DNA from: Candidatus Schekmanbacteria bacterium GWA2_38_11
Lineage (GTDB): Bacteria; Schekmanbacteria; GWA2-38-11
Reading direction: 5' to 3'
Assembly: GCA_001790645.1 (NCBI GenBank)
Contig: MGDB01000127.1
Coordinates: 22,025 to 36,001, forward strand
Length of the DNA: 13,977 nt
Program-made: the position numbers and the translations under genes
The notes under the pieces: model-generated
What the model was told of the DNA's origin: nothing
Seen by the model: the letters and a program-made list of their open reading frames with translations, nothing else
Databases searched by the model: none
Shown: positions 2,487 through 13,977 of the stretch, piece by piece
Layout of the letters: every line of letters begins with the position of its first letter
Position numbering within the stretch: the stretch's first letter is position 1

Positions 2487-2765
2487 CTATTTTACATTTA
2501 GTGCGTCTTTAAAAACCTTTGACGGCTTAAAACTTACAACCCTTCTTGGAGATATTTCATATTCTTGTCCTGTTTTGGGATTCCTTCCTGCTCTTTGTTT
2601 CTTTTCGCGTACAGCAAATTTCCCAAAACCGCTTAATATGATCTCTTCCCCGTTAGACAACGTCTGCCTGATTGTTTCTATAACCCCTTCTACTATTTCA
2701 GACGCTTCTTGTTTGGTCAGGCCAAGGTCTTCTCTCACCTTGTCTTTCAGGTCTTCTCTGGTCAT
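2487..2765 (-). CDS. HU/IHF-family DNA-bending protein
   Basis: A 92-residue histone-like protein of full family length. Residues 1-40 form the helical dimerisation part (TREDLKDKV...LTKQEASEIV). LSGFGKF (44-50) and the beta-arm GRNPKTG (60-66), with Pro63 as the intercalating residue, are diagnostic; RRVVSFKPSKVFKDALN follows. The RAGRNPKTGQEYEISPRRVV stretch looks closer to IHF-alpha than to classical HU, but assignment between the two is not possible without a tree. It binds and bends DNA in the nucleoid, possibly assisting sigma-54 promoters, which depend on bending (inference; two are present in this window). The start has an AAGGGGG ribosome site. A likely own promoter lies at 2875-2902, within the gap after argJ. 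Confidence 0.95.
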   Translation of the reverse strand: MTREDLKDKVREDLGLTKQEASEIVEGVIETIRQTLSNGEEIILSGFGKFAVREKKQRAGRNPKTGQEYEISPRRVVSFKPSKVFKDALNVK

Positions 2766-10170: not shown

Positions 10171-11292
10171 ATGGATAAAGATAAAATCATCACAATTTCT
10201 GCACCTGGGAGGATCTGTCTTTTTGGGGAACATCAGGATTATTTTGGACTACCTGTCATTTCAGCTGCAGTTAATTTACGAATAAGAATAAAAGGAACCG
10301 GAAATAAGGATAGAGCACTTAAAATTGAAATGCCTGATATAGGAGAAAAAGAGGTAATTAAATTATCTACTAAAAATTTTACCCCTGAGAAGGAACGGGA
10401 TTATTTAAGGAGTTGTCTTACCGTTTTAACAAGATATGGATATAAATTTGATCAGGGATATGACTGCATAATTGAGAGCAGCATTCCAATTGGCAAAGGA
10501 GTATCAAGTTCATCTGCAATGGTAGCGGCATGGATCAAATTCCTCTTAACTATATCAAAGAGTAAAAAGGTAGTATCTGAAGAAGAATTAGCTGAGTTAG
10601 CATATCAGGCTGAGGTTAAAGAGTTTAACGAACCTGGAGGAATGCAGGACCATTATTGCGCAAGCTTAGGCGGATTGCTTTACATTGATTCCGGAAGCGA
10701 CGGGGATTCAGTAAAAAAGACAGAAGCTATAAGGCTTAAAATTAAACTGAACGGGTTTGTTATTGGTGATAGTCTGGTACAGAAAGACACAAAAGGAGTT
10801 TTAAATAGAATCAAAACAAATGTATATTCTGCAGTTGAAAAGATTAGAGAAGAATACAGGGCCTTTGATTTCCGGAAGACACAGATAGAAGAGATAAAAA
10901 AATTTTTAGGAAAATTACCTGAAGAACCAAGGTTAAAACTTGAAGCTACTTTCATGACAAGAGACTTAACCAGAGAAGTAAAGGGATTTATTGATAAAGG
11001 AGAGGTTTATGATGTATCTTTTGGAAGGTGGCTTGATAAACAGCATTCAATATTAAGAGATGGATTACAAATTTCCACAAAAAAGATAGAAGAGTTAATC
11101 CATACAGCAAAATCAGCAGGTGCTTTGGGGTGTAAGATTAATGGTTCCGGAGGTGGAGGTTGTTTTTTGGCTTTTGCTCCTGGTAAAGAGAATGAGGTTA
11201 TTGAAGCTATTGAGCAAGCAGACGGTAAGGGGCATAGGGTGAGTATTGACAGAGGAGTTGCTGTAGAAGGAGAGAATGATGCTTCTTCTTAG
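10171..11292 (+). CDS. GHMP-family sugar kinase, galactokinase-like
   Basis: A 373-residue ATP-dependent small-molecule kinase. Motif 1 is APGRICLFGEHQDYFGLPVI (11-30), close to the galactokinase signature GEHTDY but with Gln for Thr. Motif 2, GKGVSSSSAM (108-117), is the phosphate-binding loop. GGMQDHYCASLGG (156-168) supplies the likely catalytic base Asp160. Motif 3 is KINGSGGGGCFLA (322-334). Galactokinase or a kinase for a related sugar is most likely; mevalonate kinase is less likely given GEHQDY. The exact substrate cannot be assigned. The ribosome site is weak and follows the inverted-repeat element. The 3' end overlaps tsaD, so the two are co-transcribed. Confidence 0.85.
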   Translation: MDKDKIITISAPGRICLFGEHQDYFGLPVISAAVNLRIRIKGTGNKDRALKIEMPDIGEKEVIKLSTKNFTPEKERDYLRSCLTVLTRYGYKFDQGYDCIIESSIPIGKGVSSSSAMVAAWIKFLLTISKSKKVVSEEELAELAYQAEVKEFNEPGGMQDHYCASLGGLLYIDSGSDGDSVKKTEAIRLKIKLNGFVIGDSLVQKDTKGVLNRIKTNVYSAVEKIREEYRAFDFRKTQIEEIKKFLGKLPEEPRLKLEATFMTRDLTREVKGFIDKGEVYDVSFGRWLDKQHSILRDGLQISTKKIEELIHTAKSAGALGCKINGSGGGGCFLAFAPGKENEVIEAIEQADGKGHRVSIDRGVAVEGENDASS

Positions 11293-12313
11293 TATAGAGA
11301 GTTCTTGTGATGAAACTTCAACTGCTGTTCTTGAAGACGGATATAAAATAAAATCAAATATTGTTGCTTCTCAGGTAGAAATCCATAAGAGGTTTGGAGG
11401 AGTTGTTCCGGAGCTTGCTTCAAGGCAGCATTTAGAATCCATCATTCCAATAACTGAAGGGGCAATAAAAGAGGCCGGGATAAATTTAGAAAATATCGAG
11501 GCAGTAGCTGTTACGAAAGGGCCGGGGCTTATGGGTTCTCTCCTTGTTGGTCTCTCAGTAGCAAAAGCAATAGCTTTTGTCAGAGGAATCCCGTTTATTG
11601 GTGTAAACCATTTAGAGGGGCACCTGCTATCCATACTTTTAGAGAAGCCTGAGATAAAATTTCCTTATATTTCTTTAGTAGTATCAGGAGGGCATACAAA
11701 TCTTTATTTTGTTAAAGAAATTGGAAACTACAAGTTATTGGGCAAAAGTGTGGATGATGCAGCAGGTGAGGCATTTGATAAGGTAGCAAAGATGCTGGGT
11801 TTAGGTTATCCGGGTGGACCTGTAATTGATGAACTTTCAATGGAAGGGGATCCGGAAGCCATTCCTTTTCCAAGGGCTTATATGCAGGAAAAACCGTTCC
11901 ATTTCAGTTTTAGCGGGCTCAAGACCGCAGTGCTTTCTTATCTAAAAAAAAATGGACTATATGATGAAGAAACAAAACGTGCTAAGATTAAAAAGATTTC
12001 TAAAAAACATTTGTCTGATCTTGCAGCAAGTTTCGAGAAAGCAGTAGTAGATGTCTTGGTGGATAAGGCAATTGAGGCAGCAGATAAAAGGGAATGCTCT
12101 TCAATTGCCATAGCAGGAGGAGTTGCATGCAACAGGGGATTAAGATTAGAACTTAAGAAACGAGCTGATGAAAAAGGGTTAACTGTTTATTATCCAAGCA
12201 ATAAACTGTGTCTTGATAATGCAGCAATGGTTGGGATTGCAGGATACTTTAGGATTTTAAAAGGAGAAAGGGATAAGTTTGACCTTGATGCAACAGCAAG
12301 GCTTGAACTATAA
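11279..12313 (+). CDS. tsaD: tRNA N6-adenosine threonylcarbamoyltransferase
   Basis: Catalyses the final step of t6A37 formation in ANN-decoding tRNAs, moving threonylcarbamoyl from TC-AMP to adenine with TsaB and TsaE. Family motifs are LLLSIESSCDET at the start, NHLEGH with His111 and His115, VVSGGHTNLY, GEAFDKVAKMLGLGYPGGP, SFSGLKTAV, AGGVACNRGLR and CLDNAAMVG with Asp313 as third metal ligand. An ATGATG gives two possible starts (11276, 11279); 11279 is chosen because its AAGGAG spacing is 6 rather than 3 bp and it brings the histidines to the E. coli positions 111/115. It overlaps the GHMP kinase gene by 14 bp (17 from 11276). The stop runs into a hairpin with T tract. Confidence 0.97.
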   Translation: MLLLSIESSCDETSTAVLEDGYKIKSNIVASQVEIHKRFGGVVPELASRQHLESIIPITEGAIKEAGINLENIEAVAVTKGPGLMGSLLVGLSVAKAIAFVRGIPFIGVNHLEGHLLSILLEKPEIKFPYISLVVSGGHTNLYFVKEIGNYKLLGKSVDDAAGEAFDKVAKMLGLGYPGGPVIDELSMEGDPEAIPFPRAYMQEKPFHFSFSGLKTAVLSYLKKNGLYDEETKRAKIKKISKKHLSDLAASFEKAVVDVLVDKAIEAADKRECSSIAIAGGVACNRGLRLELKKRADEKGLTVYYPSNKLCLDNAAMVGIAGYFRILKGERDKFDLDATARLEL

Positions 12314-12341
12314 AAAAGTGTTCAAATATTGAACACTTTTT
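12313..12341 (+). terminator. tsaD terminator hairpin overlapping a palindromic regulatory site
   Basis: AAAAAGTGTTCAA (12313-12325) pairs perfectly with TTGAACACTTTTT (12329-12341) around a 3-nt loop, giving an A-tract/hairpin/T-tract terminator directly at the tsaD stop. The core also belongs to the 19-bp palindrome family that recurs upstream of the next sigma-54 promoter. Confidence 0.7.
12318..12336. promoter_or_regulatory. Site A: predicted enhancer site of a sigma-54 activator
   Basis: GTGTTCAAATATTGAACAC is a perfect palindrome centred about 100 bp before the -24 box of the PEP-CTERM gene, the usual enhancer distance. It matches sites B and C upstream of the second sigma-54 promoter. 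A further half-site (TTTACACAC, reverse GTGTGTAAA) lies 21 bp, two helical turns, downstream at about 12349-12357. Confidence 0.6.
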
Positions 12342-12425
12342 AAAAAAATTTACACACTTTTTTTAAAAATATATCCTCCAAAATATAAAACTATTAATCA
12401 ATTAAATTTCAAATTAAAAAATAGA

Positions 12426-12442
12426 TGGCATAACTATTGCAT
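12426..12442 (+). promoter_or_regulatory. Sigma-54 (RpoN) promoter of the PEP-CTERM gene
   Basis: TGGCATAACTATTGCAT has GG at 12427-12428 and GC at 12439-12440, the -24/-12 elements at exact spacing (TGGCAY-N5-TTGCA). It lies about 80 bp before the start codon. Confidence 0.85.
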
Positions 12443-12522
12443 ACTAAAAAACACAAAAGCATTTGTAAGGTTTAATTTTTCAGAACAAAATTAAGTTATA
12501 AGTTAAAGGAGGTGAAAGGATA

Positions 12523-13190
12523 GTGAAAATGAAAAAAGTATGGGTTTCTGGAATAGTGATTGTTTTAATGACCATGTTTTTGAGCTTTGGAACAGCCCAT
12601 GCTTTGGCCATTACTTCAGTGTTAGGTAGTGATGTGGATGGTTTGTTTGGTGCAGCAACATATAGTTTTTCAGACACCTTTGACTTTGATCCTTTTACAG
12701 GTCCGGATGGTACCATTTACTCATGGGTTAGGCCAGGTATAGATGCCGCTACCCTTGGCAACTATCTATATCTCTACCAGATAGTAGTTAATACCGCACC
12801 ACCTTCTTCAGACGTAGCAAGTGGTATTGCAATACCTTTTCTGGGTCTGATTACAAGTGTAAATGTAGGGGGCTCCGCTGCTGATGATGAATCTATTATA
12901 TTTCTGATTCAACAGGTATTAAGACGCCTTCCTTGGCGGATTTTAGTTTTGGCGAACTGACATTCATTTTTCTACCAAAAATTGGGTATGGAGAGAGCTC
13001 AAAAGTCTTTGGTGTTATATCAAGTCTTCCACCAGCTATTGTACCTTCTGGAGTACTAGATAATGGTAGCCTTGATACAGCTAATGTCTTCGCCCCTGGT
13101 TCTGTCACTGAACCCACAACCCTTTTACTCTTAGGTTCTGGTCTGATCGGGGTGGGCATTTTAGGGAGAAAGAGATTTAAAAAGAGGTAA
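12523..13190 (+). pseudogene. PEP-CTERM secreted protein gene interrupted by a frameshift
   Basis: The product would be an exported protein carrying a C-terminal PEP-CTERM sorting signal, recognised by an exosortase. A GTG start follows AAGGAGGT by 9 bp; an ATG lies two codons later. A signal peptide (about 1-27, ending TAHA|LA) leads into a Gly/Ser/Asp-rich beta-type region. In this frame a stop is reached at 12960, but codons in the -1 frame from 12891 continue with TGIKTPSLADFSFGELTF and end in the tripartite signal: VTEP, hydrophobic LLLLGSGLIGVGIL and basic GRKRFKKR. One extra base near 12901-12911 (for example in TTT) would restore a single protein of about 222 residues. It is either a real mutation or a consensus error. 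It sits behind a sigma-54 promoter. Confidence 0.85.
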
Positions 13191-13395
13191 CCTTTAATGA
13201 GTACAGGCTAAGAAATCCAGATAGGATACAGGTTGATCTTTATGGAACCTATTTGGATCCTTTGCTAAAAAACAAGCCTATTTCTGTAGGAGAAGGGATT
13301 TTAAAAAAATAAGATCAGGTTATTTAGTCCCAACAACAGTAAGAATAGTTATGGATTTAGAGAGCTTAAAAAGAACTTTTTTAGAACTCTTTTAA
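13181..13395 (+). pseudogene. Remnant of an AMIN-domain protein gene, frameshifted
   Basis: The frame from 13181, overlapping the end of the PEP-CTERM gene, reads KEVTFNEYRLRNPDRIQVDL and continues to a stop at 13310-13312. In the next frame it resumes as KKIRSGYLVPTTVRIVMDLE and stops at 13395. Joined through the A7 run (13303-13309; one A appears missing) this gives about 70 residues with the AMIN pattern: L-x-NPDRI-x-VDL, V-G-x-G-I-xx-IR-x-G, and VRIVMDL. AMIN domains direct periplasmic proteins such as AmiC and PilQ to the cell envelope. There is no start codon, ribosome site or catalytic domain, so it is a 5'-truncated relic, perhaps left by recombination beside the PEP-CTERM gene. Confidence 0.65.
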
Positions 13396-13437
13396 AGCAA
13401 AAATGAAAAATAACTCAAAGGATTGAAAATAAAGAAA

Positions 13438-13456
13438 GTGTCCAAAAAATGAACAT
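13438..13456. promoter_or_regulatory. Site B: predicted enhancer site
   Basis: GTGTCCAAAAAATGAACAT matches site A at 15 of 19 positions and keeps the GTGTYCA/TGAACA arms. Its centre is about 240 bp before the second -24 box. Confidence 0.5.
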
Positions 13457-13551
13457 TTTTTGTAAAAAAATTTTAAAAAATAACGGGTTATGTTATTGAT
13501 AATAAATAATATATTCTATAATAAAAAACTCTTTCATAAGTGACAATAAAA

Positions 13552-13570
13552 GTGTCATAATTTTGGACAC
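13552..13570. promoter_or_regulatory. Site C: predicted enhancer site
   Basis: GTGTCATAATTTTGGACAC, flanked by AAAA and TTTT as in site A; its reverse strand begins GTGTCCAAAA like site B. The centre is about 126 bp before the second -24 box. An overlapping TGACA-N7-TGTCA palindrome (13541-13557) adjoins it. Confidence 0.55.
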
Positions 13571-13685
13571 TTTTATTGAAAAATACTTAGAATTTTTGTA
13601 AATTTATTAACTCAGTTAACTCAGTAAAAAAATATTCTCTTAAAAATCAAATTGTTAAAAAATTAATTCATAAAAGAGAGTTTTG

Positions 13686-13702
13686 TGGCACATATGTTGC
13701 AT
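13686..13702 (+). promoter_or_regulatory. Sigma-54 (RpoN) promoter of the second secreted-protein gene
   Basis: TGGCACATATGTTGCAT is an essentially perfect -24/-12 promoter (TGGCAC-N5-TTGCA), 53 bp before the ATG at 13755. Confidence 0.9.
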
Positions 13703-13754: not shown

Positions 13755-13977
13755 ATGAAAAAAAGAGTAATAGTTCTAATGGTGGTGAGTATCATAGCGT
13801 TGCTTCTATTTCTAAGCCCCAGTAATAGTAATGCTACAACTATTATGTTTGAATTCGACCCTAATATAATCATCGACGCTTATTCAACTTCACCAAATGG
13901 AGTTGGACCGTCTGCGCCAGGTGCCACTTTTGGCAATGAGCAGCATCAATCAGATCCAAGGATGCTATACATTAACA
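13755..13977 (+). CDS. Secreted protein, partial (runs off window), likely same regulon as the PEP-CTERM gene
   Basis: The visible 74 residues start with a clear Sec signal peptide: KKR, a hydrophobic core VIVLMVVSIIALLLFL (about 5-20) and a likely cut after SNSNA (residue 27). The mature part, TTIMFEFDPNIIIDAYSTSP and onward, is a polar, Gly/Pro/Ser-containing sequence of the type common in PEP-CTERM proteins. An AAGGAG ribosome site lies 6 bp upstream. The C-terminus is outside the window, so a PEP-CTERM signal cannot be seen; it is inferred only from the shared sigma-54 promoter and palindromic sites. Not present as a complete gene here. Confidence 0.8.
   Translation, partial: MKKRVIVLMVVSIIALLLFLSPSNSNATTIMFEFDPNIIIDAYSTSPNGVGPSAPGATFGNEQHQSDPRMLYIN

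Follow-up and report, generated by a model that had tools for sequence, protein, structure and literature searches.

Which activator turns on a pair of σ54-dependent genes for secreted proteins, and what DNA would it recognize? The question is raised by a stretch of 13,977 nucleotides (the window), which is part of contig C127 of Candidatus Schekmanbacteria bacterium GWA2_38_11, a genome of 2.11 Mb in 158 contigs that is 70% complete. Here, 19-bp dyads precede two -24/-12 promoters, an arrangement that a sequence-only reading had taken for the enhancers of an NtrC-type activator, perhaps PrsR. Enhancers of the NtrC type are upstream dyads that serve as sites for dimers, and an IHF site lies between the enhancer and the σ54 promoter. 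PrsR itself is known mainly from Proteobacteria, and the lineage of the window appears to lie outside that group, as judged from its relatives, three of which are nearer to it than the level of the domain.

Promoters, dyads and genes of the window

Promoter 1 (TGGCATAACTATTGCA, 12426..12441) and promoter 2 (TGGCACATATGTTGCA, 13686..13701), both on the plus strand, are exact -24/-12 sequences. Each has the TGGCAY-N5-TTGCW sequence of a σ54 promoter, RpoN is encoded in the genome, and the two belong to a set of 28 exact matches to TGGCRYN5TTGCW found there. By themselves, two such matches are not rare in the window, since 0.77 are expected when one mismatch is allowed and two or more arose in 38 of 200 shuffles.

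Site A (GTGTTCAAATATTGAACAC, 12318..12336) is a perfect 19-bp dyad and the single putative enhancer of promoter 1. It starts 4 bp past the stop codon of an ORF (11276-12313) that we take to be tsaD, and its 3' end is 89 bp from the -24 T. Promoter 2 has two candidate enhancers, the distal site B (GTGTCCAAAAAATGAACAT, 13438..13456), 229 bp from the -24 T, and the proximal site C (GTGTCATAATTTTGGACAC, 13552..13570), 115 bp from it; B and C are spaced 114 bp apart, and no strand is assigned to any of the three sites. Each dyad is present where it had been placed. Measured from the dyad centres, the promoters are about 99, 239 and 125 bp away, in agreement with the approximate 100, 240 and 126 bp given earlier. 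The common arms that had been described, GTGTYCA and TGRACAY, are found in A and B but not in the left arm of C, which deviates at two positions (GTGTCAT). At the right ends, A and B have TGAACA and C has TGGACA. A search of the window for GTGTYCAN5TGRACAY with up to two mismatches yielded six strand matches at exactly three places, A, B and C, against an expectation of 0.41, and six or more matches were obtained in 0 of 200 shuffles; the number of sites exceeds chance. The A/T runs said to flank the sites are real, and they recur at the remaining sites of this genome and are weaker in relatives.

Two IHF-like sequences lie between the dyads and the promoters, both on the plus strand. The one at 13645..13657 (AATCAAATTGTTA) matches the IHF consensus WATCAANNNNTTR exactly and is located 28 bp before the -24 T of promoter 2, a position that is conserved in relatives. 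The strict consensus occurs once in the window compared with 1.74 occurrences expected, which is not beyond chance alone, and the support for this element comes from its register. The weaker sequence at 12384..12396 (TATAAAACTATTA), 29 bp before the -24 T of promoter 1, agrees at 8 of 9 fixed positions; as it lacks the CAA, it was not scored as in register. A possible bending protein for such sites is encoded within the window itself, on the minus strand at 2487..2765. This IHF alpha-like protein scores 118.9 bits with NF001401 (cut-off 111) and 107.9 with TIGR00987, under the cut-off of 120.25.

Both promoters are followed by plus-strand genes whose products start with a hydrophobic leader, in keeping with the secreted proteins that had been predicted. 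Target gene 1 (12523..13190) closes with a PEP-CTERM domain (TIGR02595, 21.2 bits against a cut-off of 16). Its signal-peptide part (12523-12960) and its PEP-CTERM part (12933-13190) are in different frames, a split that is a frameshift, either natural or an assembly error. Target gene 2 (13755..13977) encodes an exported-looking protein and is truncated by the end of the contig, which is also the end of the window.

A PrsR/PrsK pair in the same genome

An enhancer reading requires an activator, and the genome contains eight strong matches to σ54 AAA+ activators. One of them is PrsR, scoring 568.5 bits with TIGR02915 (cut-off 502.6); with the same model, none of the remaining seven, nor an additional weaker homologue, exceeds 425.3. 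PrsR is adjoined by PrsK (TIGR02916, 447.7, cut-off 300), so that the homologue the sequence-only reading had proposed to look for is present side by side with its partner, both above curated cut-offs. Also adjoining PrsR are EpsI (64.3, cut-off 42.8) and an exosortase (TIGR02602, 174.4, cut-off 105.55), whose score does not reach the XrtW or XrtA subtype cut-offs. Acetyltransferase-like and glycosyltransferase-like genes complete this neighbourhood. No site was found on the contig that carries PrsR.

The motif across the genome

With at most one mismatch, GTGTYCAN5TGRACAY occurs at five distinct places in the genome: A, B, and one each on contigs C157, C86 and C116. All five are located 89-229 bp upstream of an exact σ54 promoter. 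Two-mismatch matches occur at 29 distinct places, and four of these are partners of the sites just described; promoter context was looked at individually for these four, all of which are at σ54 promoters. With up to three mismatches the motif is not commoner than its reversed control (277/272 versus 296/320), and most genome matches at two to three mismatches are background. For the promoter pattern, a tolerance of one mismatch gives 260 matches compared with 62 in the reversed control.

A nine-site matrix was built from the five places, C, and second sites on C157, C86 and C116, which were added as partners. The nine sites fall at 5 of the 28 exact promoters, and at the remaining 23 nothing scores above 8.2 bits; because the matrix derives from these same nine sites, only the 5/5 at the best places counts as independent evidence. 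The sites of this genome follow the 17-nt near-palindrome TGTYSR/TGTYCA-N5-TGRACA and are all more than 50 bp upstream of the -24 element (59-229 bp overall), with 59-129 bp between the most 3' copy and the promoter. Paired sites are spaced 63, 63, 65, 73 and 114 bp apart. A sixth promoter, whose first base is off consensus, precedes a PEP-CTERM gene on C121 and has a pair of sites, TGTCGGATTTTTGAACA and TGTCGGACTTTTGGACA, 63 bp apart. The PEP-CTERM genes of the window and of C121 are the two with enough upstream DNA, and both have sites; a third, on C15, is truncated at the end of its contig.

These results bear on the outcome that would have told most strongly against the earlier proposal, a motif scattered through the genome with no link to σ54 promoters. 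That possibility was rejected, given that the five best places all precede exact promoters. The elements are dyads of about 17 bp, located tens to hundreds of bp upstream and specific to σ54 promoters, and this layout supports the suggestion of NtrC-type enhancers.

Site definition and spacing in related genomes

Three genomes of the same order (G001, G002 and G003) each encode a PrsR above the TIGR02915 cut-off. The matrix from the window's own genome, used unchanged, finds sites scoring above 14 upstream of 7 of 38 exact promoters in G001, 13 of 53 in G002, and 4 of 31 in G003. For G003, 31 of 34 exact promoters were examined; the other three lie near a contig start, though upstream DNA would have been available for one of them, on the minus strand. 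No site scoring above 12 was found in the 400 bp downstream of the exact promoters in these three genomes.

A refined matrix yielded 71 sites in the four genomes and 1 site downstream of promoters. The refined site is 17 nt long, TGTCGG/TGTYCA-N5-TGRACA, with nearly invariant TGT and ACA. Across the four genomes the left half is mainly TGTCGG and the right half mainly TGAACA, TGGACA or TAGACA. By hand count, 25 of 42 site-bearing promoters have at least two sites. Successive sites are 62-66 bp apart in 15 of 28 cases and exactly 63 bp apart in eight; a 26-bp gap in the underlying list is not real, since both window promoters were entered there under one locus. The window itself is without 63-bp pairing, as A stands alone and B and C are 114 bp apart. 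Distances to the promoter cluster in the clade at 100-109 bp (14 of 71 sites).

One sequence, CTGTTGAGGAATTCAACAG, is identical at a locus of the window's genome (L040) and at one in G001 (L134), in each case 196 bp before the -24 of a σ54 promoter, and probably serves another activator. Both loci are included in the 71 sites and were left out of the counts of exported products, IHF-like elements and hairpin conservation.

The IHF-like element, too, is often found at a set distance from the promoter. Between enhancer and promoter, WWHCAANNNNTTR occurs in the plus orientation, and in most cases 17-19 or 27-29 bp separate its 3' end from the -24 T. NtrC/IHF promoters in general have an IHF site in this interval; here the element is found mostly at these two registers, which are about one helical turn apart. 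An IHF-like element at 15-19 or 25-31 bp is present at 25 of 42 site-bearing promoters compared with 21 of 103 without a site; since the register positions were chosen after inspection of the data, the associated p=9e-6 is optimistic. The contrast with base shuffles, which place the element in register 0.3 times on average and at most twice, is still large. In the window's own genome, one promoter in five, promoter 2, has the element in register.

A composite pattern consisting of the site, 85-115 bp and an exact promoter has 16 matches in the four genomes. It is found in 4 of 5 genomes with a TIGR02915 match above cut-off, compared with 2 of 55 without one, and the reversed control gives 0. 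The fifth genome, G030, which has a TIGR02915 match and no exosortase match, contains no composite match. The exosortase search also found none in the fragmented assembly of G003.

Genes behind the sites

The sequence-only reading had proposed a test for enrichment of the sites before σ54 promoters of PEP-CTERM genes. The four genomes have 43 PEP-CTERM domains, 42 of which were analysed after a short frame at a contig start was omitted. Upstream DNA of 170 bp or more is available for 32 genes, and 21 of these have a promoter (relaxed pattern) together with a site, one of them weak (12.8 bits); the expected link holds in the four genomes. Two of the remaining 11 directly follow a site-bearing PEP-CTERM gene, and 9 have none. 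At 39 PEP-CTERM loci, promoter and site were combined 20 times in the sense direction and never in the antisense direction; controls gave one combination in 168 kb of unrelated loci from the window's genome and none in 207 kb from other genomes.

The association extends to exported proteins in general. Exported-like products are encoded behind 31 of 36 site-bearing promoters and behind 39 of 85 promoters without a site (p=4e-5; of 148 promoters, 22 without a frame and 5 with short upstream DNA were omitted), and 5 of the 36 site-bearing targets are not exported-looking. A separate survey covered 39 downstream stretches, excluding the contig with PrsR. An open frame is present in 38 of these; 12 have a PEP-CTERM-like tail by our own pattern, and 20 of the 26 others have a leader-like start.

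Several targets are unusual. At L148, L206 and L113 in G001 and G002 (downstream stretches L326, L346 and L331), peptides of 51-53 residues with a basic leader are encoded right after enhancer-bearing σ54 promoters. Two of them share the stretch EPKxKxY...DITLFTS, and two precede a very large gene for an exported lipoprotein-like protein. The peptides, which we take to resemble precursors of modified peptides, have no match in Pfam or NCBIfam. Paired enhancers and a σ54 promoter also precede the gene for a conserved protein of about 80 residues, cytoplasmic in appearance, both on C86 of the window's genome (L004/L045) and on C22 of G001 (L130/L321). Its neighbour is presumably a coaBC-like gene, and the protein itself has no match in Pfam or NCBIfam. 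Among the exported targets of G002 (L331, L339, L341, L344, L345 and L349), several share a C-terminal stretch, xAGKTYWYKLEDIDS...AKKxKxKK, which is not PEP-CTERM and, from its sequence, is possibly another sorting tail.

Comparison with the proteobacterial motif

A likely precedent comes from Haft et al. 2006 (PMC1569441), who, in the part of the paper available, predicted a 17-nt PrsR site that ends in TTTACA, is sometimes repeated, and lies before PEP-CTERM genes. The spacer between this motif 1 and the σ54 motif 2 is given there as 62.8 +/- 10.6 nt, with 32-92 nt for the most 3' copy, and the same portion of the text describes the motif in Proteobacteria only, the authors having found none outside in 2006. 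The sites described here share with motif 1 a 17-nt element upstream of the σ54 promoter of PEP-CTERM genes, in a genome with PrsR and PrsK. They differ in the right half, which is TGRACA or TAGACA rather than TTTACA. A TTTACA end was looked for and is absent from A, B and C, and the sites were therefore classed as a motif 1-like variant and not as motif 1 itself. In addition, several sites of the window's genome are palindromic with TGTYCA, and pairs in the clade are most often 63 bp apart. The most 3' copy is 59-129 bp from the promoter (A, at 89 bp, is inside the 32-92 nt range and C, at 115 bp, is outside), and an IHF-like element is present in register. Finally, the clade appears to be outside the Proteobacteria, and many of the exported targets are without PEP-CTERM.

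In proteobacterial PrsR genomes the 17-nt layout is the same as in the clade. A TTTACA pattern at 35-65 bp has two matches in one of seven genomes, both in Massilia (TGTCGGAAATATTTACA and TGTCAGATATATTTACA). Their left half is TGTCGG or TGTCAG even though it was unconstrained in the search, a half-site common to the window's clade. A broader pattern, with two right-half positions free, the left half fixed as TGTYSR and a distance of 40-70 bp, has four matches in 3 of 25 genomes (Massilia, a gammaproteobacterium and Glaciecola); three end in TTTACA, one in TTAACA and none in TGRACA. This broader pattern has no match in G030 or in the four clade genomes. Most PrsR genomes outside the clade thus have no match to these strict patterns. 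When 13 loci surrounding PrsR genes (398 kb) were scanned with a looser pattern, 3 combinations emerged, compared with 1 in loci of other kinds totalling 2,048 kb; one of the 3, TGTCGATTTTTTTTACA in Malonomonas, is convincing.

The recognition helix of PrsR differs as well. It is SRGTFY or SRGTLY in the four clade proteins, and outside the clade RPTLY in 8 of 10 proteins above the TIGR02915 cut-off and RPSLY or RTTLY in the other two. These 10 are the ones scored against NCBIfam from at least 80 listed loci, all 10 being above the cut-off; many of the 80 are other activators. Taken side by side, the sequences suggest that the PrsR recognition helix and the right half-site may have changed together, in a comparison of half-sites and helices that rests on few sites.

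Experimental work on related systems comes from other lineages. Rajeev et al. 2011 (PMC3333781) studied the PrsR-type protein DVUA0057 of D. vulgaris, a predicted regulator of PEP-CTERM genes, and report enrichment of five predicted targets by DAP-chip; according to a legend in the part available, there is no validated binding site motif for it, and its lineage is different from that of the window. The available part of a report on pepA of Aquincola tertiaricarbonis (PMC9850573) describes a PEP-CTERM gene whose -24/-12 start has been mapped, which depends on RpoN and has the predicted enhancer upstream, a layout like that of the window genes in a proteobacterial host. In the literature searched, no validated binding site for a PEP-CTERM/exosortase regulator was found, and titles and abstracts revealed no report of PrsR or σ54 motifs at PEP-CTERM genes outside Proteobacteria. 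The portion available of PMC5744179 added nothing on sites.

Weighing the alternatives

Together, the promoters, the spacing and the encoded PrsR/PrsK pair make it probable, at the level of sequence, that A, B and C serve as upstream activating sequences for the σ54 activator PrsR, which presumably binds them. An alternative, which we consider unlikely though worth weighing, accepts the sites as σ54 enhancers and assigns those of the type TGTYCA-N5-TGRACA to another NtrC-family activator, with PrsR confined to TGTCGG-type sites such as those at C121. Seven further strong σ54 activators are encoded, and the sites of the window's genome are mainly TGTYCA- or TGTCTA-type, C121 being TGTCGG-type. 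In G003, TGTTCAAATATTGAACA (L100/L352), one of the 16 clade matches to the composite pattern, lies before the σ54 promoter of a gene that we take to be glnA-like, and its 17-nt core is that of A. Moreover, three composite matches occur in two genomes without PrsR above the cut-off (L300 and L306 in G036, L301 in G042); all have TGTYCA-N5-TGRACA cores, and one of the G036 cores is the core of B. These matches and the glnA-like site speak most strongly for a second activator and leave room for one. Against a division by site type, a TGTCTA-type and a TGTCGG-type site are found 65 bp apart at the single promoter on C116, and both types also share single promoters at L142 and L167 (63 bp) and at L138 (85 bp). 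Promoters with either type precede exported proteins, and the glnA-like gene of the window's own genome (L044) has no site, the best score being 8.2.

It is far less probable that the dyads function as intrinsic terminators or other RNA hairpins, even though the location of A just after the stop codon of the upstream gene, which it would end, and of C in the leader of the next gene invites the idea. As RNA, A and C do form strong folds whichever strand is read (-13.1 and -15.2 kcal/mol for the plus strand), and A may double as a terminator. However, hairpin potential (z <= -3) is seen at 6 of 9 sites in the window's genome, whereas relatives, in which the 17-nt site itself is conserved, show it at only 6 of 58, and a terminator scan requiring at least three G-C pairs found 0. 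A, B and C are all upstream of σ54 promoters, which such sites track in four genomes. Termination as a general explanation was thus rejected by folding and conservation, the stable hairpin not being conserved in relatives. The least probable of the alternatives is that the dyads are operators of an unrelated dimeric regulator, a repressor or a σ70 activator, lying near the promoters by chance. Many dimeric regulators have perfect 19-bp dyads as their typical sites, which counts in its favor. Yet the positions in the window's genome, all more than 50 bp upstream of the -24 element, fit enhancers, the sites track σ54 promoters in four genomes with none above 12 downstream, and the 17-nt layout matches that of the predicted PrsR motif.

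A proposed model for PrsR-dependent expression

Assignment of the sites to PrsR leads to the following scheme. PrsK would phosphorylate PrsR, whose dimers would bind the sites and oligomerize. IHF would bend the AT-rich spacer, and the AAA+ ring of PrsR would contact the RpoN polymerase and open the promoter. The outcome would be the production of surface proteins jointly with the exopolysaccharide/exosortase pathway.

The best reading of the sites is that they are a diverged variant of the proteobacterial motif 1 of Haft et al., in which the right half and the PrsR recognition helix have changed. A broader and more tentative proposal, possible but rather doubtful at this stage, is that the DNA code and the helix changed together (TTTACA to TGRACA and RPTLY to SRGTFY or SRGTLY), and that PrsR is now a general regulator of exported proteins, its sites often paired six helical turns apart and IHF in a fixed register. 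Its targets would then include PEP-CTERM proteins, SBBP/DUF7948 proteins, large lipoprotein-like proteins, small precursor-like peptides and one conserved cytoplasmic protein.

The findings suggest that the PrsR circuit controlling surface proteins is at work outside the Proteobacteria too, where its DNA sites are altered. The site is sharply defined in its half-sites, pair spacing, IHF register and promoter, and is testable with one protein and short DNA fragments. The circuit would be extended beyond the Proteobacteria surveyed in 2006, and would offer a natural experiment in the joint change of a recognition helix and its DNA. Promoter DNA alone could then predict surface proteins of uncultured bacteria, including those without a PEP-CTERM tag.
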